This document shows, in pieces, positions 5,822-39,827 of a stretch of 40,533 bases of DNA (within the stretch, counting starts at the first letter, position 1; each line of letters starts with the position of its first letter). Source of the DNA: Anaerostipes butyraticus (lineage in GTDB: Bacteria > Bacillota > Clostridia > Lachnospirales > Lachnospiraceae); NCBI RefSeq assembly GCF_016586355.1, contig NZ_BLYI01000067.1, positions 1 to 40,533 of the forward strand. Reading direction: 5' to 3'. The translations under genes were made by a program, and so were the position numbers. Under the pieces are notes generated by a model. That model searched no databases and was not told the origin of the DNA. It was given only the letters and a program-made list of their open reading frames with translations.

Positions 5822-6599
5822 AGAGACATTTGAAAAAAGAAAAAACAGCGGCCAGAAGGCGCTGGTGACTTATATTGTTTCCGGAGATTACGGATATGAG
5901 ACAACAAAAGAAAACATTCGTGAAATGGTAAGAGCCGGAGCGGACATTATTGAAATCGGGGTTCCTTTTTCTGATCCGATTGCGGAAGGAATCGTCATCC
6001 AGGAAGCCAGCCAGCATTCCCTTTCCCAGGGGACGACTCTGAAAGGAATCTTTCAGATGGTGAAGGAATTAAGAGAAGAGATTAAAGAAACTCCGTTTGT
6101 TATGATGATGTACTTAAACAGTATTTACCGTTTCGGAACAAAGAAATTTTTTGATCTTTGCAATGAGTGCGGAATCGACGGCGTCATTGTGCCGGATATG
6201 CCGTATGAAGAAAAGGATGAGATTCAGGGAGAGGCGACAGCCCATAGAGTAGATAATATCAGCCTTGTGACGCCGACATCCCATGACCGTATTTCTATGA
6301 TCGCAGGCGATGCGGAGGGCTTTCTTTACTGCGTCTCTTCTATCGGAGTGACAGGAACAAGAAGCGAATTTACAACGGATTTTGATTCTTTCTTTGATGT
6401 GATCAAAAAGAATTCAGAGATCCCATGCGCGGTGGGATTTGGAATATCCGGTCCGGAACAGGCAAAGACAATGAGTCAGTACTGTGACGGCGTGATCGTT
6501 GGAAGTGCCATTGTGAAGCTGATCAGCCAGCATGGCACAGAGAGTCCGAAGCATGTTTATGAATTTACACACAGCTTAAGAAAAGCCTTAGATGAGTAA
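5811..6599 (+). CDS. trpA: Tryptophan synthase alpha chain with a substituted catalytic aspartate
   Basis: Cleaves indole-3-glycerol phosphate to indole, which tunnels to TrpB. 262 residues, TIM barrel. The catalytic Glu is present (E48 in [10 protein letters not shown]), but the residue aligned with the classical catalytic Asp60 is Glu (E59, in DPIAEG), and the next motif is GIVIQ rather than GPTIQ. Phosphate-binding [10 protein letters not shown] and [11 protein letters not shown] are intact. It is the last gene of the trp operon, and no clear terminator follows. The enzyme is probably active, because Glu keeps the acid group, but this active site is a variant. Confidence 0.94.
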
Positions 6600-16415: not shown

Positions 16416-16551
16416 GTATATCACCTTACCTTTGTAAAAAATATGAAAAAAGGGTACAAAAAATACACCTCTTGCCAGGTGCAACCAAGAAATGATATAC
16501 TTAAACTTGTGTAGAGGAAAGTATATCATGCTGGCTGCATGGTAGTAAGTT

Positions 16552-16588
16552 TTCTCAGTGCCGCCTGGTTGCCGCCAGGCGGTTTTTT
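16552..16588 (+). terminator. Hairpin with T-run, first copy of a 36-bp repeat
   Basis: CCGCCTGG (16561-16568) pairs with CCAGGCGG (16575-16582) around TTGCCG, followed by six T: a rightward terminator shape. The 36-bp block 16552-16587 recurs at 16707-16742 with two differences, T to C and G to A. It sits upstream of the leftward integrase gene with no obvious rightward gene to end, so it may insulate the lysogeny genes. Confidence 0.55.
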
Positions 16589-16600
16589 GTTTATAAATTA

Positions 16601-16640
16601 AAAGACACCCAAGTATTATAAAAAATACATGAGTGCCTTT
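16601..16640 (-). terminator. Leftward hairpin after the exonuclease gene
   Basis: Arms 16601-16617 and 16624-16640 with a 6-nt loop. As minus-strand RNA they form 17 positions with two G-U pairs and one U-U mismatch, then a U-rich tail. As plus-strand RNA the two G-U pairs become mismatches, so the structure favours the minus strand and probably ends the repressor/exonuclease transcript. Confidence 0.5.
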
Positions 16641-16642
16641 CA

Positions 16643-16660
16643 ACCGTAATCAGTACGGTT
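16643..16660. repeat. Small inverted repeat in the integrase-exonuclease gap
   Basis: ACCGTA (16643-16648) and TACGGT (16654-16659) around ATCAG. TATAAT lies at 16674-16679 but has no good -35. The gap 16416-16740 holds only these hairpins and repeats; no gene was seen. Confidence 0.35.
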
Positions 16661-16706
16661 TTCTCTGTACTAGTATAATACCATAGAAATTTTATTATTA
16701 CAACAA

Positions 16707-16742
16707 TTCTCAGTGCCGCCCGGTTGCCGCCAGGCAGTTTTT
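16707..16742. repeat. Second copy of the 36-bp repeat
   Basis: Matches 16552-16587 at 34 of 36 positions. It ends on the stop codon of the exonuclease gene. The stem is imperfect compared with the first copy, so it is less likely to terminate. The pair could come from a duplication or a short deletion/insertion event in this gap. Confidence 0.6.
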
Positions 16743-17745
16743 AAATTTCATTTATCAAATCGTAAAATACATTTTCAGACAATATCTCTATGTCTTGACC
16801 TGAAAGTTTCAATTTTTCTGCTTTCTTTTGTTTTGAGCTTTTTCCGTCCTTAATTGTTGGGCAGTAGTCGTTGTTACCTAAAATCAAATAATTTGTTTTC
16901 TTGGTAACAGAATTAGCGATTATACCTCCGGCATTCACAACAAGCTGCATAGCTTCTTTTCGAGTCATTTTTTCTAATTTACCGGTGAAACAACATACTT
17001 TTTGGTAAAAGAAGCCAGACTCGTCAATTTCGTCAGAAACAGGCGTAATAGAACTAAGGTCAATGTAAGTATGTTTCTTCTGCTTGAAATCTGCAATAAA
17101 ATTATCAACACTTCCGAACTGATCTATAGCAGCATTTTGAAGTTTTATGAAGAGATCATACGTGGCCTGACAATCTGAAAGCGAACGGTGGACGGACTCT
17201 ACTTCTATATTGTAAAAATCAACCATATCAGAAAGTCTGTGATGCTTAAGCGATTTATGCAAATTTCTTGACAATCTTAAAGTATCTACAAAATCGTTTG
17301 AAAGTTCAAAATTTAAATATTTGGCGAAATTATCATATAAAAAATTTATGTCAAAATGAATATTATGTCCAATTAAAATATCGTTACCAATAAAATTATA
17401 AAAATCTTGTAAAACAATAGAAATATCCGGAGCAGAAGAAAGCATTTTATTTGTTATTCCGGTCAAATCAGTAATAAAAGGATCAACGAAATAGTACTTT
17501 TGACCATTATTGTCAATTAAAAAATCAGAATTAAAATCCTCAATACAGTCATCATAAAGAGGCTGAGGTGCCGGCTTGATTAATGAAGAAAATGAAGACT
17601 CAGGTTTTCCATCTTTAACTTTAATGGCGCCAACTTCGATAATAGAATCAAATGCAGGATCAAGTCCGGTGGTTTCGATGTCGATTATAGTGCAATCTGA
17701 TGGAAAGTCGATTAGACTATTTCCTTTGTTACGAATCTTTTTCAT
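16741..17745 (-). CDS. DnaQ-like 3'-5' exonuclease with C-terminal BRCT domain
   Basis: 334 residues. The N-terminal DEDDh exonuclease has Exo I IIDIETTGLD (Asp22, Glu24), Exo II IGHNIHFDINFLYDN and Exo III HRSLSDCQATYDLF. Residues about 246-334 form a BRCT domain (FTGKLEKMTRKEAMQLV, GGIIANSVTKKTNYLILG) like that of NAD-dependent ligase. It lies behind the repressor in the leftward lysogeny transcript, so it may be expressed in the lysogen. A role in host or prophage DNA repair, or in blocking other phages, is possible; the sequence does not decide. Confidence 0.88.
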   Translation of the reverse strand: MKKIRNKGNSLIDFPSDCTIIDIETTGLDPAFDSIIEVGAIKVKDGKPESSFSSLIKPAPQPLYDDCIEDFNSDFLIDNNGQKYYFVDPFITDLTGITNKMLSSAPDISIVLQDFYNFIGNDILIGHNIHFDINFLYDNFAKYLNFELSNDFVDTLRLSRNLHKSLKHHRLSDMVDFYNIEVESVHRSLSDCQATYDLFIKLQNAAIDQFGSVDNFIADFKQKKHTYIDLSSITPVSDEIDESGFFYQKVCCFTGKLEKMTRKEAMQLVVNAGGIIANSVTKKTNYLILGNNDYCPTIKDGKSSKQKKAEKLKLSGQDIEILSENVFYDLINEI

Positions 17746-27416: not shown

Positions 27417-27479
27417 AGGCGGAATTTGAAGGAAAATAAGCGGCAGCAGGAGGAGAGGAAATGGACAGAAATATATTGA
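27417..27479 (+). CDS. Possible 20-residue ORF with AGG start
   Basis: AGG at 27417 follows GGAGG with an 8-nt spacer and opens a 20-codon frame (RRNLKENKRQQEERKWTEIY) overlapping the next gene. It is listed only because AGG-start genes seem real in this prophage; composition and length do not prove it. Confidence 0.15.
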   Translation, partial: RRNLKENKRQQEERKWTEIY

Positions 27480-27916
27480 TCCAGTACGTAGACATGAAGC
27501 AGAGAATAAAAATCATAAAAGAAAGGATCCGGAAATTAGAAAAAGAAATAACGGATTTAAGAAAAATGGAAGTAGCAGATACAGTGAAAGGAGGATATGG
27601 AGGCACACAGCATTTTAAGATAGAAGGGCACCCAGACGGGATTTTGGACAAAAAGAAGAAACTCCTGCAGAAAAGAAAAGATATGCTGCAGAGAGAAGAA
27701 ATGGAACTTTTAACACTGACGAATGAAGCAGAAGAGTACATACAGAGTATAAATCAGATCGAGTTAAGAATAATGTTTGATTTTTATTATTTGCAAGACC
27801 TGAATTGGACCCAGACGGCATATCGGATGAATATGATGTATCCAAACCGGAATATACCATACACGGCAGAATCCTGTCGCCAAAGAAATAAAAGATTTTT
27901 TGAGAAAAATTTATAA
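27461..27916 (+). CDS. ArpU/DUF1492-like late transcription regulator
   Basis: 151 residues. The N-terminal half is a long coiled coil (MKQRIKIIKERIRKLEKEI). The C-terminus is sigma-70 region-4-like (QIELRIMFDFYYLQDLNWTQ, then TAESCRQRNKRFFEK). Such proteins sit at the end of the early operon in Firmicutes phages and activate late genes. The late operon with the tRNA and packaging genes starts about 150 bp downstream, so it probably controls tRNA synthesis too. Confidence 0.75.
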   Translation: MDRNILIQYVDMKQRIKIIKERIRKLEKEITDLRKMEVADTVKGGYGGTQHFKIEGHPDGILDKKKKLLQKRKDMLQREEMELLTLTNEAEEYIQSINQIELRIMFDFYYLQDLNWTQTAYRMNMMYPNRNIPYTAESCRQRNKRFFEKNL

Positions 27917-28014
27917 ATGTCACGCCGTGTCACACAAAAGTATGTTAAAAATAAAATGAAGCCAGTGAACAAATAAACCATTGTTGACAAGTTTCTATTG
28001 ATAACCTTTCAGGA

Positions 28015-28046
28015 AACAGCATCCATATTAGGTGGGTGCTGTTTTT
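28015..28046 (+). terminator. Terminator ending the early operon
   Basis: Stem AACAGCATCCA (28015-28025) with TGGGTGCTGTT (28033-28043), one T-G pair, 7-nt loop, then a T-rich end. It stands 18 nt before the tRNA. TTGACA at 27984-27989 may belong to a late promoter, but no matching -10 is clear. Confidence 0.8.
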
Positions 28047-28063: not shown

Positions 28064-28134
28064 CGCGCCTTAGAGTAAGGGTAGCTTATCGGTCTCCTTA
28101 GCCGATGGTCCTGGTTCGAGTCCAGGGGGCGCAA
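28064..28134 (+). tRNA. Initiator-like tRNA with anticodon CCU (reads AGG)
   Basis: Complete 71-nt cloverleaf. Acceptor 28064-28070/28127-28133; D arm 28073-28076/28084-28087; anticodon stem 28089-28093/28101-28105 with loop CTCCTTA (28094-28100); 4-nt variable TGGT; T arm 28110-28114/28122-28126 with loop TTCGAGT; discriminator A at 28134; CCA not encoded. Initiator hallmarks seen: C1xA72 mismatch, G2:C71, C3:G70, G4:C69 (formylation determinants), A11:U24, G29:C41 and G30:C40. The third anticodon-stem pair is U31-G39 instead of G:C. The E. coli initiator loop is CTCATAA; here the anticodon is CCU and position 37 is U. An elongator tRNA-Arg(CCU) would not have the C1xA72 mismatch. First gene after the early terminator and just before the late genes. 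Which amino acid it carries is unknown. Confidence 0.8.
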
Positions 28135-28866: not shown

Positions 28867-28890
28867 ATGAAAATTTTAAGGAGGGATAGA

Positions 28891-29355
28891 AGGGCAAGAC
28901 CGGCAAAAAGCGTGGAAGCAAAAACAGGAACGATCACAAAAGAGGAAGAGCAAAAGCGCAGAAACATTGAAAAGCTGACCCGCGGCAAAACTGACAAATT
29001 AAAACCTCCGAATTACTTGAACAGGAATCAGAAAAAGATTTTTAGGTACATAATCGCTGAATTAGATGAGTCAAAGTTGCTTGGAAATCTTGATTTATTC
29101 ATTCTTTCCAGGGCGTGCGTATCGATTGACCAGCTGCAAAGTTTTGACAAACAATCCAATGAAGATCCCAAAATGTTATTAGAAAAAAATTTCAGACTTG
29201 CAAAGGATTCAGCAACGAAAGATTTTTTTCGCTGCTGTAATGAGCTTTGCTTATCTCCGCAGAGCAGAGCAAAATTGTCAATTGCGGCGGTACATCAAGA
29301 AGAAGAGAAAAAAACTCTGATGGACATACTGAATGAGGAAGATGACGATGATTAA
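28891..29355 (+). CDS. terS: Terminase small subunit (P27 family), putative AGG start
   Basis: 154 residues counted from AGG at 28891. The family normally begins M-A-R-P-x-K-S, and here AGG stands where the Met codon should be, followed by ARPAKSVEAKTG, then KLKPPNYLNRNQKKIFRYI and LDLFILSRACVSIDQLQ. AAGGAGG (28878-28884) is 6 nt upstream, exactly right for 28891. An in-frame ATG at 28867 lies before this Shine-Dalgarno and has none of its own. TerS recognises phage DNA and loads the large terminase. Overlaps terL by 8 nt. Confidence 0.82.
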   Translation, partial: RARPAKSVEAKTGTITKEEEQKRRNIEKLTRGKTDKLKPPNYLNRNQKKIFRYIIAELDESKLLGNLDLFILSRACVSIDQLQSFDKQSNEDPKMLLEKNFRLAKDSATKDFFRCCNELCLSPQSRAKLSIAAVHQEEEKKTLMDILNEEDDDD

Positions 29356-31018
29356 ACACCCGGCAGTTAATTATGCGGAGGAAGTCGCAGAAGAGCGTAT
29401 CAGAGCGCCAAAATACGTAAAGATACAATGCAGGGAATTTCTTTCGATTTTCCGAGGGGAAAGTGAAATTTATTGTATTAACACGAAATTGCTAAAAAAA
29501 ATCTATGTAATTTTAAAACTGCTCAAAATGGCGAAAGGGCCAAAAGCAGGGCAAAGCATATATAAATCCTTGGCCGGATACCAGTGGCTGCTGATCACGG
29601 CTGTGATCGGAACAGTATACAGAGAAGACAAAAGAAAAAGAAGGTACCAGACAGCACTGCTGGAAATATGCAGAAAAAACGGAAAAACATTTGTTGTGGC
29701 CGTACTGTTTATTTTGCTCTTTTACCTGGAACCGAGCTATTCGAGATTTTTTTCTGTCGCGCCAGATGGAGCATTGGCAAGAGAGATAAAAGAAGCAATT
29801 GAACCGCTAATACAGACAAACGCAGCAGTGTTTGAAAAGGGAGAATTTAAAATACTGCGGGATTATATCTTACACCGGCCAACGAAAACAAAATATACAC
29901 CGCTGAATTATTCCACAACAAGGATGGATGGAAAAGAACCATCTGTTTTTATAGCAGATGAAGTAGGTGCACTGCCGACACCATACGCGATTGAGGCTAT
30001 GCGATCAGGCCAGCTTCTTGTAAAAAATAAACTGGGATTTATTATATCCACGAAATATCCGACGGTTCACAATCCGCTGGAAGATGAAGTGCAGGATGCC
30101 AAAATGATACTTGATGGTCTGGTAGAAGACCCGACAGTATTTGCTTTACTGTATGAGCCGGATAATCCAGATGATTGGGCGACGGATGATGACGTGCTGA
30201 AGGACGGAAATCCTCTGGCACAGGAAATCGAAGAAGTATGGGATGATCTGGTAAAGAAAAGAGAGAAGGCGATACGACGGGAGAGTCTTCGAGAAAATTT
30301 CCTGACCAAACATTGCAATATCGTCTATCAGGGGCAGGGAACAGAAGTCTATGTTGAAGTAGAGAAAGTAAGAGCCTGCAAGATAGATCATATTGATTGG
30401 GAAGGAATGGAAGTATATATTGGCGTCGATCTGGCCATGTCGAACGATAATTGCGCCGTAGCCATGAGCGCAGAGATGGACGGGGAAATTTACTCCGATG
30501 TAATAGCATTTATCCCAGAAGGCCGGATAGACGAAAAGAATGAATTTGAACATATTGATTATAGAAGATTTATTCAAGAGATGAAATGCATTGCCTGCGG
30601 CGATATGACAGTAGATTACAGCGTGATCGAGGATTTTGTATTTGGAATCGAAGAAAAATATGGCGTAACGGTGCGGGCGATTGGTTACGATCGTTACAAT
30701 GCCCTGTCCAGTGCACAGAAATGGAATGAGAAATACGAAACGGTGGAAATCCGGCAGCACAGCGATACACTGCATCCGCCGACAAAACTGCTTTACGAAT
30801 ATATCTTAAATCGGCAATGGCATTACACAGAAAATATTCTTTTAGAAATCAATTTTGAAAATGCAAAGTGTACTTTTGATACAAATATGAACCGATACGT
30901 GAACAAGAAAAAATCATCCGGAAAAGTGGATGAAGTGGCAGCAATCATAAACAGCATTTATCTATTGCAACAAAATGTATTGCTGTATGACGGAGATTTT
31001 GTAGTACAGACAGCATAA
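29348..31018 (+). CDS. terL: Terminase large subunit
   Basis: 556 residues from the ATG at 29348 (GAGGAAG upstream; in-frame ATGs at 29333 and 29342 are alternatives). The ATPase domain has a Walker A-like ICRKNGKT (about 107-114) and Walker B VFIADEVGAL (Asp204-Glu205). The C-terminal RNase H-like nuclease shows GVDLAMSNDNCAV and YSVIEDFVFG. This is the motor that packages DNA into the prohead. It uses a normal ATG, unlike terS and the portal gene. Confidence 0.93.
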   Translation: MIKHPAVNYAEEVAEERIRAPKYVKIQCREFLSIFRGESEIYCINTKLLKKIYVILKLLKMAKGPKAGQSIYKSLAGYQWLLITAVIGTVYREDKRKRRYQTALLEICRKNGKTFVVAVLFILLFYLEPSYSRFFSVAPDGALAREIKEAIEPLIQTNAAVFEKGEFKILRDYILHRPTKTKYTPLNYSTTRMDGKEPSVFIADEVGALPTPYAIEAMRSGQLLVKNKLGFIISTKYPTVHNPLEDEVQDAKMILDGLVEDPTVFALLYEPDNPDDWATDDDVLKDGNPLAQEIEEVWDDLVKKREKAIRRESLRENFLTKHCNIVYQGQGTEVYVEVEKVRACKIDHIDWEGMEVYIGVDLAMSNDNCAVAMSAEMDGEIYSDVIAFIPEGRIDEKNEFEHIDYRRFIQEMKCIACGDMTVDYSVIEDFVFGIEEKYGVTVRAIGYDRYNALSSAQKWNEKYETVEIRQHSDTLHPPTKLLYEYILNRQWHYTENILLEINFENAKCTFDTNMNRYVNKKKSSGKVDEVAAIINSIYLLQQNVLLYDGDFVVQTA

Positions 31019-31029
31019 AGGAGATAGAC

Positions 31030-31275
31030 ATGGGATTAAAAGACACAATAAAAATGATGGAAAGCAATGATTATAAAGAACGATTTCGGGCGGAATACTG
31101 GCAAGTAAGAATCCGCTTTGAAAAATTAGAATCCATGATAAAAAAATGGGAAAACCGGGAACTTGATTTTATACCGACGTGTCCAAAGAGCATCTATTGC
31201 CTGCAGCTTAACATGATGCAGGATTACATCAATCTACTGGAAGCGAGGGCGGAACTGGAGAATATTGAACTATAG
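31030..31275 (+). CDS. Small protein of the crAss001_48-related type
   Basis: 81 residues (YKERFRAEYWQVRIRFEKLE, LDFIPTCPKSIYCLQLNMMQ, YINLLEARAELENIEL). The pattern, a helical pair ending in LExRAELExI, matches a small phage family often near terminase or structural genes. Function unknown. GGAG precedes the ATG. Confidence 0.65.
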   Translation: MGLKDTIKMMESNDYKERFRAEYWQVRIRFEKLESMIKKWENRELDFIPTCPKSIYCLQLNMMQDYINLLEARAELENIEL

Positions 31276-31285
31276 GAGGTAGCAA

Positions 31286-32539
31286 AGGTTATTTTTTAAG
31301 AAAAGAGTAAGAGCAGAGCCGGAAGAAACGGAAGAGAAAAAAGAAGAATCCGAACAGGGAAGTCAACTCCTTTCTGCCTGGATTAATAACGATGACATCA
31401 CGAGAGAAAAAGCGATACAGATTCCGTCGGTGGCAGGGGCGATTAATGAAATTGCAAGAACAGTGGCCAATATCCCGATTAAACTGTATCGGAGAGATGG
31501 AGACAGGGTAATTGAGGCGAAAGAAGATTACCGGGTATTTATGTTAAATGAAGAAACCGGAGACACACTGGATGCAAACCAGATGAAACAGGCGATCGTG
31601 AAAGATTATTATCTTGGCCGAGGTGGATATATCTATGTTGACTGGAATGGACTGACAATAGATTCTCTAAGATATGTAAAAAGCGAATGTGTTTCTACAG
31701 CATCCAACGCAGACGAAATCTTTAAAGAATATGTAATTATGGTACAGGGGAAATCTTATTTTCCAGAACAATTCATCCGGGTGCTCCGAAATACAAAAGA
31801 CGGTATGCGAGGAAACAGCATTGTTGAAGAGAATAGCAAGGTGTTAAGCGTGGCATATAATTCGCTTGAATATGAAGAAAACCTTGTGAAAACCGGTGGA
31901 AATAAGAAAGGTTTTGTAAAGTCGGCCAGAAAGCTGTCGCAAGGGGCGATTAACAAGTTGCGGGCGGCCTGGAGGAACCTGTATCGAAATAACACGGAAA
32001 ATGTTGTGATCCTGAATGAAGGGCTGGAATTCCAGGAGGCGTCTAATACGTCTGTTGAGATGCAGTTGAACGAAAACAAGAAAACCAATGGAGAGGAGTT
32101 GCGCCGGATCCTTGGAGTTCCGGAAGATATCGAGACGGAACAGGGAGACAAAACGTACATAAAATACTGTGTAAATACCTTTATGGGCGAATTTATGACA
32201 GCATTAAACCGGGCGCTGCTCCTGGAAAAAGAAAAAGGAACCTACTATTTCGCTCCGGATATGTATGAGCTTACTAAAGGAGACACAGATAAACGTTACA
32301 GTGCTTATAAAACGGCGGCAGAAACCGGATGGCTGCAGATCGACGAAATCAGAGCGATGGAAAACCGTGAACCGTTAGGAATTAATATGGTAAAACTTGG
32401 ATTACAGGACGTGTTATACGATCCGGAAAACCAAAGTATTTATATACCAAACATGAACAAAAGTGCAAAGATCGGGGAAGGAGGGACCGAAGAAGGGCAA
32501 GAATTGAACTCAGGGCAGAGAATGGAAGAGAATCCGTGA
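31286..32539 (+). CDS. Phage portal protein, putative AGG start
   Basis: 417 residues counted from AGG at 31286, 6 nt after AGGAGG (31274-31279). The following codons give LFFKKRVRAEPEE, a typical portal N-terminus, then IPSVAGAINEIARTVANIPI and DYYLGRGGYIYV. Later come LRRILGVPEDI and EIRAMENREPLG. The next canonical start in frame is a GTG at 31430, inside the conserved block, which would drop 48 residues and has no Shine-Dalgarno. HK97-type portal forming the dodecameric DNA gate. Confidence 0.85.
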   Translation, partial: RLFFKKRVRAEPEETEEKKEESEQGSQLLSAWINNDDITREKAIQIPSVAGAINEIARTVANIPIKLYRRDGDRVIEAKEDYRVFMLNEETGDTLDANQMKQAIVKDYYLGRGGYIYVDWNGLTIDSLRYVKSECVSTASNADEIFKEYVIMVQGKSYFPEQFIRVLRNTKDGMRGNSIVEENSKVLSVAYNSLEYEENLVKTGGNKKGFVKSARKLSQGAINKLRAAWRNLYRNNTENVVILNEGLEFQEASNTSVEMQLNENKKTNGEELRRILGVPEDIETEQGDKTYIKYCVNTFMGEFMTALNRALLLEKEKGTYYFAPDMYELTKGDTDKRYSAYKTAAETGWLQIDEIRAMENREPLGINMVKLGLQDVLYDPENQSIYIPNMNKSAKIGEGGTEEGQELNSGQRMEENP

Positions 32540-33108
32540 TCATTGATGGGTATGTGAATGTGACAGGAAGGAATAGCCGGCCAATCCCGGATGGGAAGGG
32601 CGGCTATTTTATCGAGAGGATTCAGTCGGGAACTTTCCGGAAAGCGATGAAGCGGGCAGAAGAGATAAAAATCTTACTGAACCACAAGTGGAGCAGGATC
32701 CTTGGAAGCACCAAGACAAACCTGAATCTGCAGGAAGATAAAATCGGGCTGAGAGCACATGTGGAAACCGAAGATCCGGAAGTTGTACAGGCAGCAAAAG
32801 AGAGAAGGTTGCGAGGATGGAGTTTTGACATCCTGCACCCGGTAGAAGTCCGAGCAGATGGAGAGAACGGGATCCCGACACGGACGATTACCGACATGGA
32901 TATGAGGGAGGTGTCCTTAATAACAAACATGCGGCCATGGTACGAAGGGACTACAGTCACAGCAGAGACCAGAGCAGGAGAAAAAGAGGAAGTTTTTGAA
33001 ATCCGTGCGGAAGAATTTGAACCTGAATATATCGGGTTTGAAGATAAAAAGAACTATGACAACAGCAGCTTAAAAAAGATTATCGAAAAATACGGAGGTA
33101 ATGTGTAA
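32536..33108 (+). CDS. HK97-family prohead protease
   Basis: 190 residues with a GTG start overlapping the portal end. Catalytic His50 lies in LLNHKWSRILGST and Ser96 in LRGWSFDIL, the pair used by the herpes-like protease fold; DMREVSLI follows. It cleaves the capsid scaffold domain. GTG is used here while its neighbours on both sides use, or appear to use, AGG. The TAA stop overlaps the possible AGG start of the capsid gene. Confidence 0.88.
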   Translation: MIIDGYVNVTGRNSRPIPDGKGGYFIERIQSGTFRKAMKRAEEIKILLNHKWSRILGSTKTNLNLQEDKIGLRAHVETEDPEVVQAAKERRLRGWSFDILHPVEVRADGENGIPTRTITDMDMREVSLITNMRPWYEGTTVTAETRAGEKEEVFEIRAEEFEPEYIGFEDKKNYDNSSLKKIIEKYGGNV

Positions 33109-34358
33109 GGAAAAAGACGAGAGTAAATAGAGCAGAGCAAAGAAAGATGAAGATGAACATTCAGTTCTTTGCAGAAAAAAACAACATCAAAAAATTAAAA
33201 GAGCAGAGAGCCGAAAAAGTACAGGAATTGAAAGACCTGTATGAAACAGTAGAGGCAGAACAGAGAGCAATCAACGAAGAAGAGGAACAGAAAGTAAACG
33301 ATATCCAGAAAGAGATCGATGATATCGACAAGACGATCAAAACGCTGGAAGGAATCAAAAAACGCTTAGAAGAGACAGGCGGAAACAATGAGGAAGGCGG
33401 CGAAGGAGCTTCGGAAAACGATGAATCCGCAGAGCAGAGAGCGCAGGATGAAGAAAAGATGTTCGCAGAGTATCTTCGCGGAGTGGCGAACGGAGAATTA
33501 AGAGCTGACACAAACATGACGCTGACGGACAATGGAGCCGTGATCCCGGAAACCATCGCACAGAGAATCATTGAAAAAGTATATGAAATTTCGCCAATCC
33601 TGGAAAGAGCAACTAAGTACAACATCAAGGGAAGCCTTGTGATCCCGTTTTATCCAGCGGATGCAAATGATATTGAAATGGCATACGCGGATGAATTTGA
33701 AGAACTGGAAGCAAGCGCAGGAAAATTCGGAAGCATTACCTTATCTGGATTTTTAGCAGGGGCATTGACTAAAGTGTCGCGCTCGCTCATGAATAACAGC
33801 CAGTTCGATATCGTATCTTTTGTTGTAAATCACATGGCTCAGAAAGTGGCCAGATGGATTGAAGGCGAATTATTGAAAGGGACGGCATCCAAAATTGAAG
33901 GATTGTCTACGGTAACTCAGGGAGTAACTGCAGCATCTCAGACGGCAATTACAGCGGATGAGTTAATTGATCTGCAGGATTCTGTAAAAGATGCGTTCCA
34001 GCAGAGGGCTATCTGGATCATGTCAAGCAAGACCAGAACAGCCATCAGAAAATTAAAAGATGGAAATGGAAGATATCTGCTGCAGGATGACATCAATGCA
34101 GCGTTTGGCCGTGTACTGCTGGGAAAAGATGTGTATGTTTCTGACAACATGCCGGAAATGGCAGCAGGATCCAGAGCTATCTATTATGGCGATATGTCTG
34201 GACTGGCAGTTAAGATCACGGAGAATTTTGAAGCACAGGTATTAAGAGAAATCTACGCAACACAGCACGCGATCGGAGTTGTAGGATGGACAGAAATTGA
34301 CGCGAAAGTGGAAGACGAGCAGAAAATTTCTGTACTTACAATGGCTTCTGGAGATTAA
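33108..34358 (+). CDS. HK97-fold major capsid protein, start AGG (33108) or ATG (33147)
   Basis: 403 residues from ATG 33147 (KMNIQFFAEKN) or 416 from AGG 33108 (KKTRVNRAEQRKMKMNIQFF). GGAGG (33094-33098) is 9 nt before the AGG, while the ATG has no clear ribosome site. Residues about 10-110 after the ATG form a charged coiled coil, the delta/scaffold domain removed by the protease. The shell part carries GAVIPETIAQRIIEKV, KYNIKGSLVIPFYP, GKFGSITLSGFLAGALTKVS and IWIMSSKTRTAI. I prefer AGG because of the spacing, but with less certainty than for the other AGG genes. Confidence 0.88.
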   Translation, partial: RKKTRVNRAEQRKMKMNIQFFAEKNNIKKLKEQRAEKVQELKDLYETVEAEQRAINEEEEQKVNDIQKEIDDIDKTIKTLEGIKKRLEETGGNNEEGGEGASENDESAEQRAQDEEKMFAEYLRGVANGELRADTNMTLTDNGAVIPETIAQRIIEKVYEISPILERATKYNIKGSLVIPFYPADANDIEMAYADEFEELEASAGKFGSITLSGFLAGALTKVSRSLMNNSQFDIVSFVVNHMAQKVARWIEGELLKGTASKIEGLSTVTQGVTAASQTAITADELIDLQDSVKDAFQQRAIWIMSSKTRTAIRKLKDGNGRYLLQDDINAAFGRVLLGKDVYVSDNMPEMAAGSRAIYYGDMSGLAVKITENFEAQVLREIYATQHAIGVVGWTEIDAKVEDEQKISVLTMASGD

Positions 34359-34369
34359 GGTGATACACA

Positions 34370-34519
34370 ATGAAATATAGGGCATTGAAAAGTTTTTCCG
34401 GAAAGATTGCAATGGAAAAAGGAGAGGTGCGGGAGCTGAAAAGTTCCCTGGCCTCTGAATATGTGGCGTGTGGATTTCTGGAAAAAATGAAGGCGGTGAG
34501 AAAGAAGGAAAATAAATGA
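34370..34519 (+). CDS. Small head-associated protein
   Basis: 49 residues (MKYRALKSFSGKIAMEKGEV) with an SH3-like strand pattern often seen as a small gene after the capsid. AAGGTGA precedes the ATG. The stop overlaps the head-tail connector gene. Confidence 0.6.
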   Translation: MKYRALKSFSGKIAMEKGEVRELKSSLASEYVACGFLEKMKAVRKKENK

Positions 34520-34814
34520 TATTTCGCTTGCTACGATTTGTAATCATATCAGAGAAATTGAGGAAAATCTTGAAGATGATGACAAAAATCTAATAGAAGC
34601 TCAATTTGGGGCTGCGGTTGCATATTGTAAAGGATATACCGGCCTGACAGAAGAAGAACTAAACGAACATGAAGATATTACAATAGCTGTTCTTGCGCTG
34701 ATCGCGGATATGTGGGACAACCGATCCACGACGGTGAGCCAGGCAAATCCAAATAGGACGGTAGAGACAATCCTTGGAATGTATAGCACAAACCTGTTAC
34801 CGAACGGAGAGTGA
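34506..34814 (+). CDS. Head-tail connector (gp6-like), putative AGG start
   Basis: 102 residues counted from AGG at 34506: KINDISLATICNHIREIEEN, then EAQFGAAVAYCKGYTGLTEE and LIADMWDNRSTTVSQANPN. This is the gp6-like adaptor, whose usual start is M-K-I-x-D-I. No ATG, GTG or TTG occurs in frame before the middle of the gene. GGTGAG (34495-34500) gives a 5-nt spacer. An ATG at 34516 opens a different 25-codon frame with no family match. The protein closes the portal ring. Confidence 0.75.
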   Translation, partial: RKINDISLATICNHIREIEENLEDDDKNLIEAQFGAAVAYCKGYTGLTEEELNEHEDITIAVLALIADMWDNRSTTVSQANPNRTVETILGMYSTNLLPNGE

Positions 34815-34818
34815 TCGT

Positions 34819-35157
34819 ATGGATGCCGGAGCTTACAGAAATAAAGTTGTGATACAAAAATATACAGGCGAGTTTGATGATATCGGGAATCCGGCCGGAA
34901 AATGGGAAGATTACAAGAAAGCATATGCTTATGTTAACGGCCTGTCCGGAAGAGAGTACTGGGAAGCAGCCAATGTAAAACAGGAAAATACGGTAGAATT
35001 TATATTTCGGTGGAAGCCGTTCTTTGATGAAATGAATACAAAACGATTCAGGATATTGTTTCGGAACGGAGTCTATAACATAAATTCGATTGACAACATA
35101 CAGTTTCGGAACCAGACAGTAAAAATAAAGGCGGTGGTAAAAGATGGCGAAAGCTGA
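34819..35157 (+). CDS. Head-tail adaptor (head closure protein)
   Basis: 112 residues from the ATG at 34819. Pattern: AGAYRNKVVIQKYTGEFDDI, AYVNGLSGREYWEA, TVEFIFRWKP and YNINSIDNI, the beta-barrel head-completion family. GGAGAG upstream. Overlaps the next gene by 14 nt. Confidence 0.82.
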   Translation: MDAGAYRNKVVIQKYTGEFDDIGNPAGKWEDYKKAYAYVNGLSGREYWEAANVKQENTVEFIFRWKPFFDEMNTKRFRILFRNGVYNINSIDNIQFRNQTVKIKAVVKDGES

Positions 35158-35533
35158 CGCCGGAAATCTGGCAGATGTGATTATGAAAGAGTTGAGAGAA
35201 TACAGAGAACTTAAAAATGAAGAAATGGAAGAGATTGCAAAGGAAGTAGCGGCCGAAGGAAGAAAAAAATTGAAGGCGACATCGCCGCGCGGATCCGGAA
35301 GCAGAAAAGGACACTATGCGGACGGATGGAGCGTAAAGGCAGTTAAATCTGGAAACGGGAAATTTTCTTTTACGATTCATAACCGGAAAAAACCGGGACT
35401 AACACACCTTCTGGAGAAAGGACACCAGTTGCAGCAGGGAGGGAGAGCCGAAGCATATCCACATATTAAAAAAGTAGAAGAGTGGTGCAACAAAGAGTAT
35501 GAACGACGCGTGAAAGCGAGGCTAGGCAGATGA
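35144..35533 (+). CDS. HK97 gp10-family tail component
   Basis: 129 residues. An N-terminal helix, RGSGSRKGHYADGWSVK in the middle and the family signature THLLEKGHQLQQGG with the conserved HLLExGH. Attaches the tail to the head connector. GGTGG precedes the ATG. Confidence 0.85.
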   Translation: MAKADAGNLADVIMKELREYRELKNEEMEEIAKEVAAEGRKKLKATSPRGSGSRKGHYADGWSVKAVKSGNGKFSFTIHNRKKPGLTHLLEKGHQLQQGGRAEAYPHIKKVEEWCNKEYERRVKARLGR

Positions 35534-35847
35534 CAGCACAAGAAATCTATGAGGGACTGAAAAGCCTGGGATATCCTGTTGCATACAGCCATTTTGCGGA
35601 AGGAGATGTTCCGCAGCCGCCTTATATTGTGTATTCATTCTCGGGAACCGACAATTTTTCTGCAGACGGCATTGTATATCACCAGATCACGGAGGTGGAC
35701 ATCGAATTATATACAATGAAAAAAGATTTGGAGGCGGAGGGAAAAATAGAAAACTGGATGACAGAAAATGAACTCTTTTACGAAAAGTCAGAGTATTATA
35801 TCGAATCTGAAAGAATGTTACAGGTAAATTTTGAAACGGAGGTATAA
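35530..35847 (+). CDS. Tail completion / terminator-like protein
   Basis: 105 residues: LKSLGYPVAYSHFAEGDVPQ, PPYIVYSFSGTDNFSADG, VDIELYTMKKDLEAEG. It has the size, position and strand pattern of tail terminator proteins between gp10 and the major tail protein. Overlaps gp10 by 4 nt (ATGA). Confidence 0.7.
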   Translation: MTAQEIYEGLKSLGYPVAYSHFAEGDVPQPPYIVYSFSGTDNFSADGIVYHQITEVDIELYTMKKDLEAEGKIENWMTENELFYEKSEYYIESERMLQVNFETEV

Positions 35848-35849
35848 GA

Positions 35850-36395
35850 AGGAGCAAAGTAAAATTTAACATTAAAAATGTGCATTATGCAGTGCAGGAA
35901 GATGACGGATACGGAACTCCGGCACCACTTCCGGGAGCGGTATCAATATCCCTTGAACAGCAGGGAGAGATTACTCCGTTCTATGCGGATGGCATCGTGT
36001 ACTATAAAAGTGCATCAAATGGCGGGTATGAAGGCGATTTAGAGATGGCGTTAATTACGGATGATTTCCGGAAAGATGTTTTAGGAGAAGAAGAAGACGG
36101 TAAAAAGGTACTGATTGAAAACATAAATGCGAAGGGAAAAACATTTGCACTGGGGTTCCAGATTGATGGGGATGTAAAACCAACGCTGTTCTGGTTTTAC
36201 AATTGTACGGCGACACGCCCAAATGTAGAGTCCGAAACAACGGAAGACACCAAGGAACCAGGAACCGAAACGGTTACAATTTCCTGCGCATCAAATGAAG
36301 ACGGGGATGTAAGAGCAAAGACAACAGACAATACTGACGATGCAACGAGAAACAGCTGGTTTGAAAGTGTATACGAGAAACAGCCGGCTGCATAA
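35850..36395 (+). CDS. Major tail protein, putative AGG start
   Basis: 181 residues counted from AGG at 35850, 7 nt after GGAGG (35838-35842). The following SKVKFNIKNVHYAVQ is the normal beginning of phi13-type major tail proteins, which start M-S/A-K-V-K. Further motifs: PGAVSISLEQQGEITPFYAD, SNGGYEGDLEMALITDDF and ATRNSWFESVY. The first canonical start in frame, a GTG at 35880, lies inside the first strand and has no ribosome site. Forms the tail tube. Confidence 0.85.
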   Translation, partial: RSKVKFNIKNVHYAVQEDDGYGTPAPLPGAVSISLEQQGEITPFYADGIVYYKSASNGGYEGDLEMALITDDFRKDVLGEEEDGKKVLIENINAKGKTFALGFQIDGDVKPTLFWFYNCTATRPNVESETTEDTKEPGTETVTISCASNEDGDVRAKTTDNTDDATRNSWFESVYEKQPAA

Positions 36396-36418
36396 GCTGA
36401 TGGAGGGACTGGACAGAC

Positions 36419-36838
36419 ATGAGAAAAACAATAACCATTGATGAAAAAGAATGTAAATTTAAAAGCTCAGCAGCGATTCCGAGAATGTACCGGCTGAAGT
36501 TTAACAGGGATATTTTTGTGGATATGGACAACATAGCAAAGCAGATGAAAGTCCAGGAACGGTTGAAAGAAGACTTAAAGAAAGCAGCCGAAGAAAAAGG
36601 AGAAGAATTTGACGAAAGTCAGTTTGAGTCCAATTTGCCAATCCATTCGCTTGAGATGTTTGAGAATATCGCATACCTGATGCACAAACACGGAGACCCA
36701 AGTCAGCCGGACGATATCTTAGAATGGATTGACCAGTTTGAAATGTTCGACATTTATAAAATTTTTCCAGAGATCATGAAAATGTGGAACCTGGAAAATA
36801 AACAAATGTCAAAGGCAAAAAAAAAGAAAGGGAAATAG
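36419..36838 (+). CDS. Tail assembly chaperone (gpG-like)
   Basis: 139 residues: KTITIDEKECKFKSSAAIPR, YRLKFNRDIFVDM, a charged coiled coil, then PDDILEWIDQFEMFDIYKIF. The end is a run of Lys codons ahead of TAG. Position before the tape measure gene and the slippery site at its 3' end fit gpG, which chaperones the tape measure during tail assembly. Start ATG; GGAGGG is rather far (12 nt). Confidence 0.8.
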   Translation: MRKTITIDEKECKFKSSAAIPRMYRLKFNRDIFVDMDNIAKQMKVQERLKEDLKKAAEEKGEEFDESQFESNLPIHSLEMFENIAYLMHKHGDPSQPDDILEWIDQFEMFDIYKIFPEIMKMWNLENKQMSKAKKKKGK

Positions 36839-37011
36839 ATAGACAGTTAAATACCGCATTGTTCATGCTACGGTGTGTGCAATGCGGTATTGCTGTATCT
36901 GACCTGGACTTATTGAGCATTGGACTGGTAAACGACATGTTTGTGGAAATGAAAAACGATGAATACGATTATCCGCGGCTGGCTACGCAGGAAGATATTG
37001 ACAATCTGTAG
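36820..37011 (+). CDS. Programmed -1 frameshift extension (gpGT-like, product starts at 36419)
   Basis: The gpG frame ends at 36838, but a -1 frame continues to TAG at 37009-37011: KKERE IDRQLNTALFML, VQCGIAVSDLDLLSIGLV, NDMFVEMKNDEYDYPRLATQ. The heptamer A AAA AAG at 36820-36826 is the classical bacterial -1 slippery sequence in the right phase. The long product would be the gpGT chaperone, as in lambda. No independent start with a good ribosome site exists for the second frame. Confidence 0.82.
   Translation, partial: KKEREIDRQLNTALFMLRCVQCGIAVSDLDLLSIGLVNDMFVEMKNDEYDYPRLATQEDIDNL
36850..36891 (+). repeat. Perfect 12-bp stem-loop after the slippery site
   Basis: AATACCGCATTG (36850-36861) and its exact complement (36880-36891) with an 18-nt loop. 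It starts 23 nt after the slippery site, further than usual stimulators, but lies within the overlapping coding region and has no terminator T-run. It may stimulate frameshifting directly or through a pseudoknot. Confidence 0.65.
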
Positions 37012-37022
37012 GAGGTGAGACA

Positions 37023-39827
37023 GGGAGCAGCAGGATAAAAGGCATCACGATCGAACTGGATGGAGATGCGACTGGATTAAATAAAGCCCTGGAGGGGGTA
37101 GATAAAAACTTAAAGAGCACATCGAAGGAATTACAGGATGTAAATCGATTGCTGAAACTGGATCCGTCCAACATAACGCTTCTGACACAAAAAAACGAAT
37201 TGCTTGGGAAATCGATCTCTGACACAGAAAAAAGATTAGACGCATTGAAGATCGCAAATGAGCAGGCTGCAGCATCGGCTAAAAATTATGATGCATGGAA
37301 AGCGGCAATGACGCCGATTCAGACAGAAATAGAACAGACGAAAAAGAAAACGGCCGAACTGAAAAACGCGATGCAGGAAATGCAGGATGCTGGAGAAACG
37401 GATACTACAGGATACAAAGAACTGCAAAGCGAGCTGACTGAATCCACTAAGAAATTACGAAGTTTGAGAGCAGAAGCCAAAACGGTGAATGCCGAGTTTG
37501 GGAATCCGATTAGTCCGGAAGGATTTCGGGCGTTGCAAAGAGAGACAGAACAGACAGAGCAGAAACTGGGAAATCTTAAAAATGAAGCAAAACAGACATC
37601 CAGTGCTCTGGAAAATGCTTTCAAAAACGCAGGGAGCGGAGCGGGAGGTCTAAAAGAAAAGATTGACCAGATTGCAAATTCAACGCAGATCACGGCCATG
37701 GCAGAATTGGCAGATGTAGCTGGAGGCATAGGCGATAAGCTCGTAGAGATCGGGAAGAACGCTATGGGAACATCGCAAGAATTTGGAGATGCGCAATCCA
37801 ACATGCAGGCAAATCTTGGGTTAACGGAAAAAGAAGCGCAGCAGGCGGGAGACGTTGTAAAAAATGTTTTTAACTCAGGCGTGACTGATTCCGTAGAAGA
37901 AGCCGGAAAGGCTGTAACGTTGGTGAAACAAAATTTTGGAGAATTGGATAATACGAATCTGCAAAATATTTCACAACAGCTGATGTCGATATCGGATATC
38001 ACAGGAACTGATATGCAGGACAATGTTCTGGGTGCATCGAAACTGATGCAGGAATACGGACTCAGTGCCCAGGAAGCTATGGATCTGATAGCGGCAGGAT
38101 ATCAGGAGAACTTGAATAAGAGCGGGGACTTCATGGATACGCTCAACGAGTATTCCCCACTATTCGAAGAGGCCGGTTTTTCCGCTGAACAGATGATGCA
38201 GATTATGAAGAACGGCATGGAAAACGGGGCAATGAATACAGGTAAAGTGGCCGATGCCGTAAAAGAGCTGCAGATCAAGCTTGGAGACGGAACCTTTGAA
38301 GAAAACATGGGGAACTTCTCAAAAGCAACACAAAATACATTTAAGGAATGGCAGAGTGGAAAAGCGACAGTTGCGGATGTGGCATCAAGCATTGGGGCAG
38401 ATTTGAAAAAAATGTCCCCGGAAGACCAACAGAAAGCATTGTCTTCACTGTCCAGCCAATTTGAAGATCTGGGAATTGATGCGTCTGTTGCCCTCTTTCA
38501 GACAGGAGACGCATTTAGTGACACAACTGGCAAAGCAAAAGAATTTGCAAAAGCGACACCGAGCCAGGAGTGGCAGTCATCTATCAATGAGATCAAGAGC
38601 AGTACAGAGGGAATCGGAGAAAATTTACAGAATGCTCTACAACCGATATTAGATGTGATAGCGGATATTGCGAAAAAGTTTTCGGAACTGCCAGCGCCAG
38701 TACAGACGTTCGTGACGGTGCTGGGAGTATTACTGGCAGCAGCAACTGTAATAACGCCAGTTGTATTAGCTATGGCAGGAGCATTTGCAACATTACAAGT
38801 ATCGTTACTGCCAATTATAGCGGTCATAGCCGGAATCGCATTGGCAATAGCTGCCATTATAACAGTTATACAAAACTGGTCGACGATCACGAAAGTAGCT
38901 GGACAGGTATGGCAGCAGGTAAAAACAGCAATTTCGACGGCCGTGAATGCCGTGAAATCAGTCATAACGTCCGTATTTAATGCTGTAGGATCGTTTATAA
39001 CGTCTGTATTTAACAGCATTAAATCTGTGGCGTCAAGCGTATGGAACGCGATCAAATCAGCAATACAAACAGCGGTGAACGCTGTGAAATCTGTAGTTCA
39101 GTCTGTATTTAATGCCGTGAAATCATTTGTGACTTCTGTGTTCAATGGGATTAAATCCGTAACGACGAGCGTATGGAACGCGATAAAATCAGCGATACAA
39201 ACAGCAGTAAACGGAGCAAAATCTGTTGTAACATCTGTTTTTAATGCAATAAAGTCTTTTGTATCCACAGTAACTAATGCAATAAAAAATGCTGCGGTAA
39301 AAGCATTTAATGGACTTAAAAATGGGATTAAGTCTGTTGTAAGCGGACTGGCAAATATCGTAAAAAAACCGTTTAATACGATAAAAGATTTTATTACCGG
39401 ATTAGCGAGTCAGGCGTACGAATGGGGCGCTGATTTTATAGGTGGGCTTAAGGATGGAATTATGTCTGGAGTTGGAAAAATCGTAGACGGAGTGAAAGGA
39501 ATTGGAGGCAAAATCAAAAGTTTCCTGCACTTTTCACGGCCGGACGAGGGACCACTAAGAGAATATGAGTCGTGGATGCCGGACTTTATGAGTGGACTTG
39601 CGAAAGGAATTTACAATAATATCCCGGTAGTGGCTAAAGCAGCGAAAGCAGCGGCGAATGCCATCAGTATAAATACGCAGGGGGCAACACAAATGGGAAC
39701 TGATATTGATTACGGCAGAATGGCTGCAGCATTTTCAAGAGCAGCACGGAATATTAAAGTAATATCGGTAATTGACAGCCGGAGCTTTAAACGAGGACTT
39801 GGAGAAATCGGGGTGCAATTTCAATGA
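37023..39827 (+). CDS. Tail tape measure protein, putative GGG start
   Basis: 934 residues counted from GGG at 37023, 7 nt after AGGAGG (37010-37015). Next come SSRIKGITIELDGDATGLNK and DVNRLLKLDPSN, the standard N-terminus of this family (usually M-S-S-R-I-K-G-I-T). No ATG, GTG or TTG occurs in frame until TTG 37149, which would delete 42 conserved residues. Long helical regions follow, hydrophobic helices near 500-580 (VQTFVTVLGVLLAAATVITP), 11-residue repeats and a C-terminal GGLKDGIMSGVGKIV. It sets tail length. Confidence 0.87.
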   Translation, partial: GSSRIKGITIELDGDATGLNKALEGVDKNLKSTSKELQDVNRLLKLDPSNITLLTQKNELLGKSISDTEKRLDALKIANEQAAASAKNYDAWKAAMTPIQTEIEQTKKKTAELKNAMQEMQDAGETDTTGYKELQSELTESTKKLRSLRAEAKTVNAEFGNPISPEGFRALQRETEQTEQKLGNLKNEAKQTSSALENAFKNAGSGAGGLKEKIDQIANSTQITAMAELADVAGGIGDKLVEIGKNAMGTSQEFGDAQSNMQANLGLTEKEAQQAGDVVKNVFNSGVTDSVEEAGKAVTLVKQNFGELDNTNLQNISQQLMSISDITGTDMQDNVLGASKLMQEYGLSAQEAMDLIAAGYQENLNKSGDFMDTLNEYSPLFEEAGFSAEQMMQIMKNGMENGAMNTGKVADAVKELQIKLGDGTFEENMGNFSKATQNTFKEWQSGKATVADVASSIGADLKKMSPEDQQKALSSLSSQFEDLGIDASVALFQTGDAFSDTTGKAKEFAKATPSQEWQSSINEIKSSTEGIGENLQNALQPILDVIADIAKKFSELPAPVQTFVTVLGVLLAAATVITPVVLAMAGAFATLQVSLLPIIAVIAGIALAIAAIITVIQNWSTITKVAGQVWQQVKTAISTAVNAVKSVITSVFNAVGSFITSVFNSIKSVASSVWNAIKSAIQTAVNAVKSVVQSVFNAVKSFVTSVFNGIKSVTTSVWNAIKSAIQTAVNGAKSVVTSVFNAIKSFVSTVTNAIKNAAVKAFNGLKNGIKSVVSGLANIVKKPFNTIKDFITGLASQAYEWGADFIGGLKDGIMSGVGKIVDGVKGIGGKIKSFLHFSRPDEGPLREYESWMPDFMSGLAKGIYNNIPVVAKAAKAAANAISINTQGATQMGTDIDYGRMAAAFSRAARNIKVISVIDSRSFKRGLGEIGVQFQ
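38925..39290 (+). repeat. 11-residue repeats in the tape measure gene
   Basis: About ten tandem 11-codon units of the type VNAVKSVVTSV/FNAIKSFVTSV. A larger 132-bp unit is visible: the block starting GCGTATGGAACGCG at 39037 recurs at 39169. Repeat number in tape measure proteins tracks tail length, and such repeats change by recombination. Confidence 0.75.

Follow-up and report, generated by a model that had tools for sequence, protein, structure and literature searches.

Late region of the Anaerostipes butyraticus prophage

The analyzed window is the complete 40,533-base contig NZ_BLYI01000067.1 of Anaerostipes butyraticus, on which a temperate prophage, equipped with a serine recombinase and an S24-type repressor, lies among ordinary genes of the host. 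This study concerns the late region of that prophage, where an initiator-type tRNA with the anticodon CCU is followed by virion genes that apparently start at AGG or GGG codons. The late region is preceded by a phrog_36 regulator, which may be the late activator, and then by a terminator-like hairpin. It comprises, in this order, the tRNA, a small open reading frame, an HNH gene, the small terminase gene (terS), the large terminase gene (terL) and the genes for portal, protease, capsid, connectors, major tail protein and tape measure. The names of the virion genes were confirmed with PHROGs and the coordinates are listed in Table 1.

Table 1. Features of the prophage late region and its upstream border, with predicted start codons
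Feature	Predicted start	Position	Strand	Remarks
Initiator-type tRNA, anticodon CCU (loop CUCCUUA)		28064..28134	+	ARAGORN; Rfam RF00005, 44.5 bits; covariance model R1; alignment A4
Small terminase	AGG	28891..29355	+	Shine-Dalgarno 28878-28885; phrog_83
Portal	AGG	31286..32539	+	Shine-Dalgarno 31274-31279; phrog_12
Head maturation protease	AGG	32494..33108	+	Shine-Dalgarno GGAGGG about 8 nt upstream; phrog_80
Major capsid protein	AGG (probable)	33108..34358	+	Shine-Dalgarno 33094-33099; AGG overlaps the protease stop (TAAGG); phrog_10
Head-tail adaptor Ad1 (connector)	AGG	34506..34814	+	phrog_40
Major tail protein	AGG	35850..36395	+	Shine-Dalgarno 35837-35843; phrog_88
Tape measure	GGG	37023..39827	+	Shine-Dalgarno 37010-37015; phrog_58
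Large terminase (contrast)	ATG (ordinary)	29348..31018	+
Terminator-like hairpin		28012..28046	+	directly 5′ of the tRNA; pattern match only
Transcriptional regulator (phrog_36)		27461..27916	+	upstream of the late region

Start sites of the virion genes

A sequence-only reading of the window had proposed that terS, portal, connector, major tail protein and tape measure carry AGG or GGG in place of a start codon. Each of these five codons was found where it had been placed (Table 1). All five lie 6-7 nt past a Shine-Dalgarno (SD)-like sequence, where 5-7 nt had been claimed; this contains GGAGG in four cases, and the GGTGA of the connector is weak. The list of genes itself was too short, since the head maturation protease and probably the capsid gene also belong to it.

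In the portal frame, a stop is found two codons before the AGG and the first ATG, GTG or TTG 48 codons downstream. Internal canonical starts were rejected for the portal, connector, major tail and tape measure genes. For the capsid gene, ATG 33147, located 13 codons past the AGG, is kept as an alternative. An SD-preceded AGG stands at the matching place in L239, L240, L244 and L245; the capsid of ordinary-start relatives begins near codon 14-25, which speaks against AGG 33108. A start at this AGG is considered probable from the sequence.

The start pattern is repeated in the CCU phages of the window family (L239, L240, L244 and L245), whose portals are 53-68% identical. The portal AGG is present in these four as well as in L069 and L241. 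For terS, the window and L245 have AGG, and L239, L240 and L244 have ATG. L239 and L240 carry the protease AGG at the identical residue, L245 also has AGG, and L244 has ATG. Outside the window, the connector AGG was seen solely in the 99% relative L069; the codon is ATG in L239, L240, L241 and L245. At the residue of the GGG of the window tape measure, L239 and L240 have AGG.

Homologues had been expected to show methionine start codons at the recoded positions. This held at the very same residue for terS (ATG in L158, L246, L249 and L275), for the connector (ATG in L155/L158 and GTG in L156; the ATG of L157 lies four codons earlier) and for the major tail protein (AGG in L239/L240, ATG in L242/L300). 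For the portal the codon was displaced, by one codon in L157 (ATG) and L156 (GTG) and by more in L155/L158. The protease of ordinary-start relatives begins with ATG one or two codons downstream of the AGG of the window.

Ordinary starts were found for terL, Hc1 and the genes at 35144, 35530 and 36419. The sequence-only reading had counted terL and the HNH gene among the genes with ordinary starts, which was borne out for terL. The HNH gene has an AGG with a better SD two codons before its ATG, yet its relatives begin at the ATG. No recoded start was seen 5′ of the tRNA in the window; two AGG sites flagged before the tRNA in L240 look false, as they lie inside a cytosine-methylase-like frame.

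A sequencing error at the AGG sites was rejected because the portal AGG is also present in L069, which comes from an independent metagenome. A four-base reading (AGGG) at the tape measure is not needed, since the codon in L239 and L240 is simply AGG, and a different gene of L163 has GGG in place of the AGG found in the relatives of L163. The automatic start caller used for the relatives misplaces starts where the N-terminus is unaligned, and for the window tape measure it called AGG 37032 instead of the GGG.

The CCU tRNA has an initiator-type body

The nearby CCU tRNA invoked by the sequence-only reading is real according to ARAGORN and Rfam and lies just outside the interval that this reading gave. 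ARAGORN names it tRNA-Arg(CCT). Covariance model R1, which was built with the window tRNA among its members, scores it at 81 bits. The body shows a C1xA72 mismatch, A11:U24, G29:C41, G30:C40 and a U31-G39 wobble, and CCA is not encoded. An elongator tRNA-Arg(CCU) has a paired 1-72 and a pyrimidine 11:purine 24, and the window tRNA has neither. It shares with initiator tRNAs the lack of a Watson-Crick 1-72 pair and the A11:U24 pair (purine 11, pyrimidine 24), and differs from them in its anticodon, CCU instead of CAU. The C1:A72 mismatch and three G:C pairs are described as the main initiator marks (PMC8576571; this and the other publications are cited here from excerpts).

For comparison, 19 tRNAs with the anticodon CCU (13) or CUU (6) were aligned (alignment A4) and their pairings read by eye. 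A Watson-Crick 1-72 pair is absent from all 19 (CxA in 10, CxU in 4, AxA in 5), where the tRNA of L164 was taken one base past the end given by ARAGORN. A11:U24 is found in 13 of the 19. The CUU tRNA of L124, outside this alignment, has a paired U1-A72, and its phage shows no AAG excess after SD motifs (8 vs 7.3 expected).

The host fMet tRNA has G:C at the position where 17 of the 19 tRNAs have U31-G39 (28093 and 28101 in the window). The acceptor arm of the CCU/CUU tRNAs of L041, L164, L324 and L333 is apparently one base longer and their T stem shorter, as read by eye.

In the window, L239, L240, L244 and L245, the tRNA precedes terS at a distance of 0.53-0.76 kb. No clear conserved block was found 5′ of the tRNA in the upstream DNA of five phages.

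Co-occurrence of anticodon and start codon

Relatives were collected by the capsid protein (A1, the best 80 of 165) and by the portal (A2, the best 80 of 503; A3, 16 of 16). Their starts were AGG in 11 and ATG/GTG in 69 loci of A1, AGG in 6 and ordinary in 73 of A2, and AAG in 11 and ATG in 5 of A3. Seven of the 74 ordinary loci of A2 were at first without a visible start; a closer look revealed TTG or GTG in six, and in the seventh, L282, the start lies outside the stretch examined, so that it was entered as ordinary in the co-occurrence test.

A covariance model built from the 19 tRNAs, a set which includes recoded loci, was run on all relatives of A1, A2 and A3. It also detected many ordinary tRNAs, including CAU tRNAs of ordinary-start sisters, and is therefore not blind to the latter. 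A CCU or CUU tRNA was found in 18 of the 28 AGG/AAG loci and in none of the 148 others. Where 5 kb or more of upstream sequence was available (86 relatives), the matching tRNA was present in the same phage for 15/15 AGG/AAG loci and absent from all 71 relatives with the standard signal (Fisher 4.6e-17), which is the pattern expected of a code reassignment by a phage tRNA. With one locus per 95% cluster, the numbers were 14/14 and 0/58. The anticodon fits the start codon every time (CCU with AGG, CUU with AAG). The ten recoded loci without a tRNA in the searched stretch span 0.2-4.2 kb upstream, and one of them, L159, has the tRNA elsewhere on its contig. The proposal that codon and anticodon changed together is supported by this co-occurrence and by the CUU/AAG pairing, which behaves alike. 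Homologous AGG phages without the tRNA, which would have argued against it, were sought and none was found among the 15 recoded loci for which the upstream DNA extended over 5 kb or more.

The codon at the aligned start is strongly conserved (counts include the query phages). In A1, 65 of 92 positions were AGG, 3 ATG, 1 GGG and 1 AGA, 8 were other codons with AGG adjoining (next or preceding codon) and 14 were unaligned. In A2, 20 of 34 were AGG, 4 ATG and 1 GGG, 2 were other codons each followed by AGG and 7 were unaligned. In A3, 21 of 22 were AAG and 1 was unaligned. The single AGA in A1 was the only synonymous arginine codon at this position, with none in A2, while internally AGG makes up a share of 0.10 (A1) and 0.17 (A2) of the arginine codons and AAG 0.18 of the lysine codons (A3). 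In the ordinary-start classes, AGG came up 23 times and AAG 5 times in the 254 automatic calls for A2, with 19 of these AGG falling in the protease, and the 266 calls for A1 contained 13 AAG and 1 AGG. The rows inspected (34 for the protease and 30 for g8566, a part of these calls) appear to show an arginine as second codon after ATG/TTG or an alignment that ended short of the start.

AGG downstream of Shine-Dalgarno motifs

Codons located 4-9 nt after SD motifs and opening at least 60 codons were counted. In the late region of the window, AGG is the most over-represented of these codons (6 vs 1.1 expected, Poisson P about 1e-3), with no excess outside it (4 vs 4.2). AGG was also raised in other tRNA-bearing contigs, namely G401 (13 vs 1.6; the same in G397, the two being apparently copies of one phage), G404 (20 vs 1.6) and G405 (15 vs 3.8). 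No excess was found in three control sets (21 vs 21.8, 33 vs 32.0 and 3 vs 2.7), of which the two larger consist of contigs from chance matches of a tRNA pattern (66 loci, mostly chance) and are no random draw. Chance as the source of the AGG/AAG starts was rejected on the basis of this enrichment, the co-occurrence and the aligned-start codons.

Apparent recoding in other phage groups

The CCU or CUU pairing is present in three further phage groups, one of which combines the anticodon CUU with AAG starts. In a genome collection of 84,980 species, the CCU initiator pattern was found at four loci. L100 belongs to a phage in a Clostridiales metagenome-assembled genome (tRNA with C1xU72), and L101 and L103, from two Lachnospiraceae, have an identical tRNA with A1xA72. 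The fourth, L102 (73-148), is an fMet-like gene with the anticodon CCT in Neobacillus piezotolerans, located beside a tRNA-Asp at a contig edge among chromosomal genes and not in a phage; it may be a mutation, a pseudogene or an assembly error. Among viral contigs, the CCU form was identified in L104 (same tRNA as L100), L020, L041 and L048, and the CUU form in L119/L122/L126. A classification of the L020, L041 and L048 tRNAs as elongators was rejected on their ARAGORN drawings. When the combined CCU/CUU pattern was searched in 392 genomes of the order of the window, the genome of the window itself was the sole match. The trait would thus be rare in this order or would escape that pattern.

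In L101 and L103, terS, portal and tape measure (named by PHROGs) are located at AGG, as is a MuF-like gene with a weak SD (by reading), and terL, scaffold and capsid (named by reading) at ATG. For eleven virion-region genes of L041, L048, L104 and their relatives, 93 of 100 start calls were AGG, 1 was GGG and 6 were ATG. The AGG gene L100:2506 was rejected as terS, as its continuation shows the front part of terL. In L119/L122, the AAG of the portal, capsid and major tail genes follows an SD, and a stop is located no more than two codons upstream of it; the first canonical codon of the capsid gene lies 126 codons inside. Two recoded tail genes, which PHROGs identifies as major tail proteins (E 5e-9 and 2e-4), are without any in-frame ATG, GTG or TTG.

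Further observations were made in these phages. The large terminase frame shifts by +1 near Walker A, at the same place, in four distinct AGG-start phages (L166, about 5558-6548; also L100, L161/L162, L163 and L169), and is in frame in the relatives L159, L164, L167 and L171; this is possibly a programmed frameshift. The Rfam skipping-rope RNA was detected in two recoded phages (L169, 4974-5087; L333, 6239-6323). L135, a phage with a large tRNA array, encodes an RNA ligase (phrog_968, 16287-17435) with an apparent AGG start, which could be related to tRNA repair.

Regarding the origin of the recoding, the A1 ordinary-start sisters L171, L174 and L175 carry identical CAU tRNAs, which precede the capsid gene by about 5.6 kb. 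These are 79% identical to the CCU tRNA of L166, itself 5.3 kb upstream of the capsid gene, and have A11:U24, but their 1-72 can pair (A-U). A phage-borne initiator-like CAU tRNA may therefore have come first, with anticodon and starts changing together afterwards. The portals of A3 and of L103 belong to one PHROG (phrog_533).

Interpretation and alternative explanations

Taken together, it is very likely that the start codon, mostly of virion genes, has been reassigned by an initiator tRNA which the phage itself encodes. The anticodon of the prophage initiator would have changed from CAU to CCU. The CCU initiator would set the ribosome on AGG after an ordinary SD, and on GGG by the same G-U pairing that lets CAU read GUG, with host methionyl-tRNA formyltransferase (MTF) and IF2 presumably accepting the tRNA for initiation at AGG. 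As the tRNA stands at the head of the late region, virion proteins would need late transcription and would be made in quantity only once the late region, including the tRNA, is transcribed. Such a translation gate on the late genes, taken alone, is nearly as probable as its opposite. A late-timing hypothesis has been proposed for phage stop-codon recoding (PMC9523058).

Several observations weigh against parts of this interpretation. The anticodon stem of the window tRNA has two G:C pairs and U31-G39 where three G:C pairs would be usual, an incomplete triplet that recurs in 17 of the 19 aligned tRNAs, of both the CCU and CUU types, and the six aligned tRNAs without A11:U24 have U11:A24. Alone, the window tRNA folds to a cloverleaf with a stability no better than that of shuffles (z -0.98); for L169, whose degenerate tRNA was recovered by pattern search, a fragment of this tRNA gives no cloverleaf on folding. 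After SD motifs, AGG is not raised in G398 (5 vs 6.5), G400 (8 vs 5.8) and G403 (4 vs 3.5), nor is AAG in G407 (6 vs 5.2) or in G408 (8 vs 7.3), whose CUU tRNA has a paired 1-72, perhaps due to few recoded genes or dilution by host DNA; the case in G398, G400, G403 and G407 therefore rests on individual genes. In G405 (L134-L136), a CCU phage, AAG is raised as well (11 vs 4.5). A strict late gate fits less well with the apparent AGG starts of three A1 genes (exonuclease, RusA-like gene and RNA ligase, each in one phage) and with starts that alternate between AGG and ATG within the window family. Finally, MetRS presumably depends on the anticodon CAU, which makes the charging of the tRNA uncertain.

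One alternative is that ordinary tRNA-Arg(CCU) and tRNA-Lys(CUU) supplement rare codons, with AGG and AAG being internal residues and the true starts ATG, GTG or TTG elsewhere. The ARAGORN labels (tRNA-Arg and tRNA-Lys), the presence of other tRNAs in several of these phages and the in-frame ATG of the window capsid gene fit such an explanation, but the aligned tRNAs throughout lack a Watson-Crick 1-72 pair, and the SD spacing, the stops close upstream and the two tail genes without an in-frame canonical start are difficult to reconcile with it. Given also that synonymous codons are nearly absent at the start site and that tRNA-free relatives have ATG/GTG at or beside the same residue, this alternative is very improbable.

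Two other explanations accept the reassignment and differ on its cause. It may serve mainly as an escape from toxins or host defences, such as VapC-type nucleases, by which tRNA-fMet is destroyed or limited, with late timing being secondary. VapC enzymes with initiator tRNA as their target have been described, and phage tRNAs with changed anticodon loops have been proposed to evade them (PMC10264068); one AGG phage has the RNA ligase gene (phrog_968) described above, and some further non-virion genes of A1 are apparently recoded. A defence directed at tRNA-fMet would also hit early genes, though, and the window region before the tRNA is without AGG starts. This explanation is a serious competitor, although less likely than not. 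Less probable still is a neutral or selfish ratchet, in which an anticodon change followed by drift between ATG and AGG made the tRNA indispensable without regulatory benefit. Start codons that differ gene by gene among relatives (connector, terS) and the CAU tRNA kept by some A1 ordinary-start sisters would be expected from such a process. It does not account for the concentration of recoding in the virion genes of the window family, for the tRNA just before terS in 5/5 phages of this family examined, or for the two different anticodons in distinct phage groups, which may point to selection.

Within the preferred interpretation, that a phage-encoded initiator has reassigned the start codon, the amino acid at the start is a separate question. 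CCU carries the ArgRS anticodon identity (C35, U36), without A20, and CUU the LysRS identity. If aminoacylation follows the anticodon, virion proteins might begin with formyl-arginine or formyl-lysine instead of formyl-methionine, in several phage groups that perhaps changed their start codon independently, as part of an orthogonal initiation channel, apart from the translation of the host, that switches on virion synthesis. This is put forward tentatively, as somewhat less probable than the gate itself. GlnRS or ValRS charges Escherichia coli initiator mutants with a changed anticodon, and translation nevertheless starts with these mutants at UAG and GUC (PMC2268962); for an AAG/CUU start pair, activity in vitro has been reported (PMC13232202).

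Comparison with known systems

Few parts of the genetic code are as fixed as the identity of the start codon, and the natural code changes known to us in phages concern stop codons. If true, the reassignment would represent a natural orthogonal initiation system, consisting of a phage-borne initiator tRNA and matching starts, and would offer ready-made parts for synthetic biology. Standard gene callers would misplace or miss AGG- and AAG-started genes, and non-methionine initiation in nature would become a testable question.

Bacteria have a few rare non-AUG starts, such as AUU and the GTC of sigR, that the ordinary tRNA-fMet reads; these concern single genes and involve no dedicated tRNA. In sigR, the non-canonical start serves for control (PMC5472188). 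Phage tRNAs that evade anticodon nucleases also have an altered anticodon loop, while the meaning of the codon is apparently unchanged there (PMC10264068). In phages that have reassigned a stop codon (TAG to Gln by a suppressor tRNA, in crAss-like phages among others), for which proteomic support exists, a phage tRNA likewise alters the meaning of a codon, often in structural or late genes (PMC9523058). Stop-codon recoding reads a stop during elongation, whereas the present phages would use a sense codon for initiation with an initiator-type tRNA; inside genes, AGG and AAG may keep their usual meaning.

A further likeness is found in engineered E. coli initiator anticodon mutants (U35A36 for UAG, G34C36 for GUC), where an initiator backbone is likewise combined with a matching non-AUG start and charging follows the anticodon (Gln, Val; PMC2268962). 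In the open-access literature searched (titles and beginnings of abstracts), engineered and stop-codon cases were found and no natural reassigned start codon. The engineered initiators and artificial initiation codons are man-made and none is phage-borne, whereas the tRNAs described here are natural and known from sequence alone. On the basis of that literature, a natural reassignment of the start codon would be new in kind; alternatively, it can be regarded as a new branch of phage recoding.

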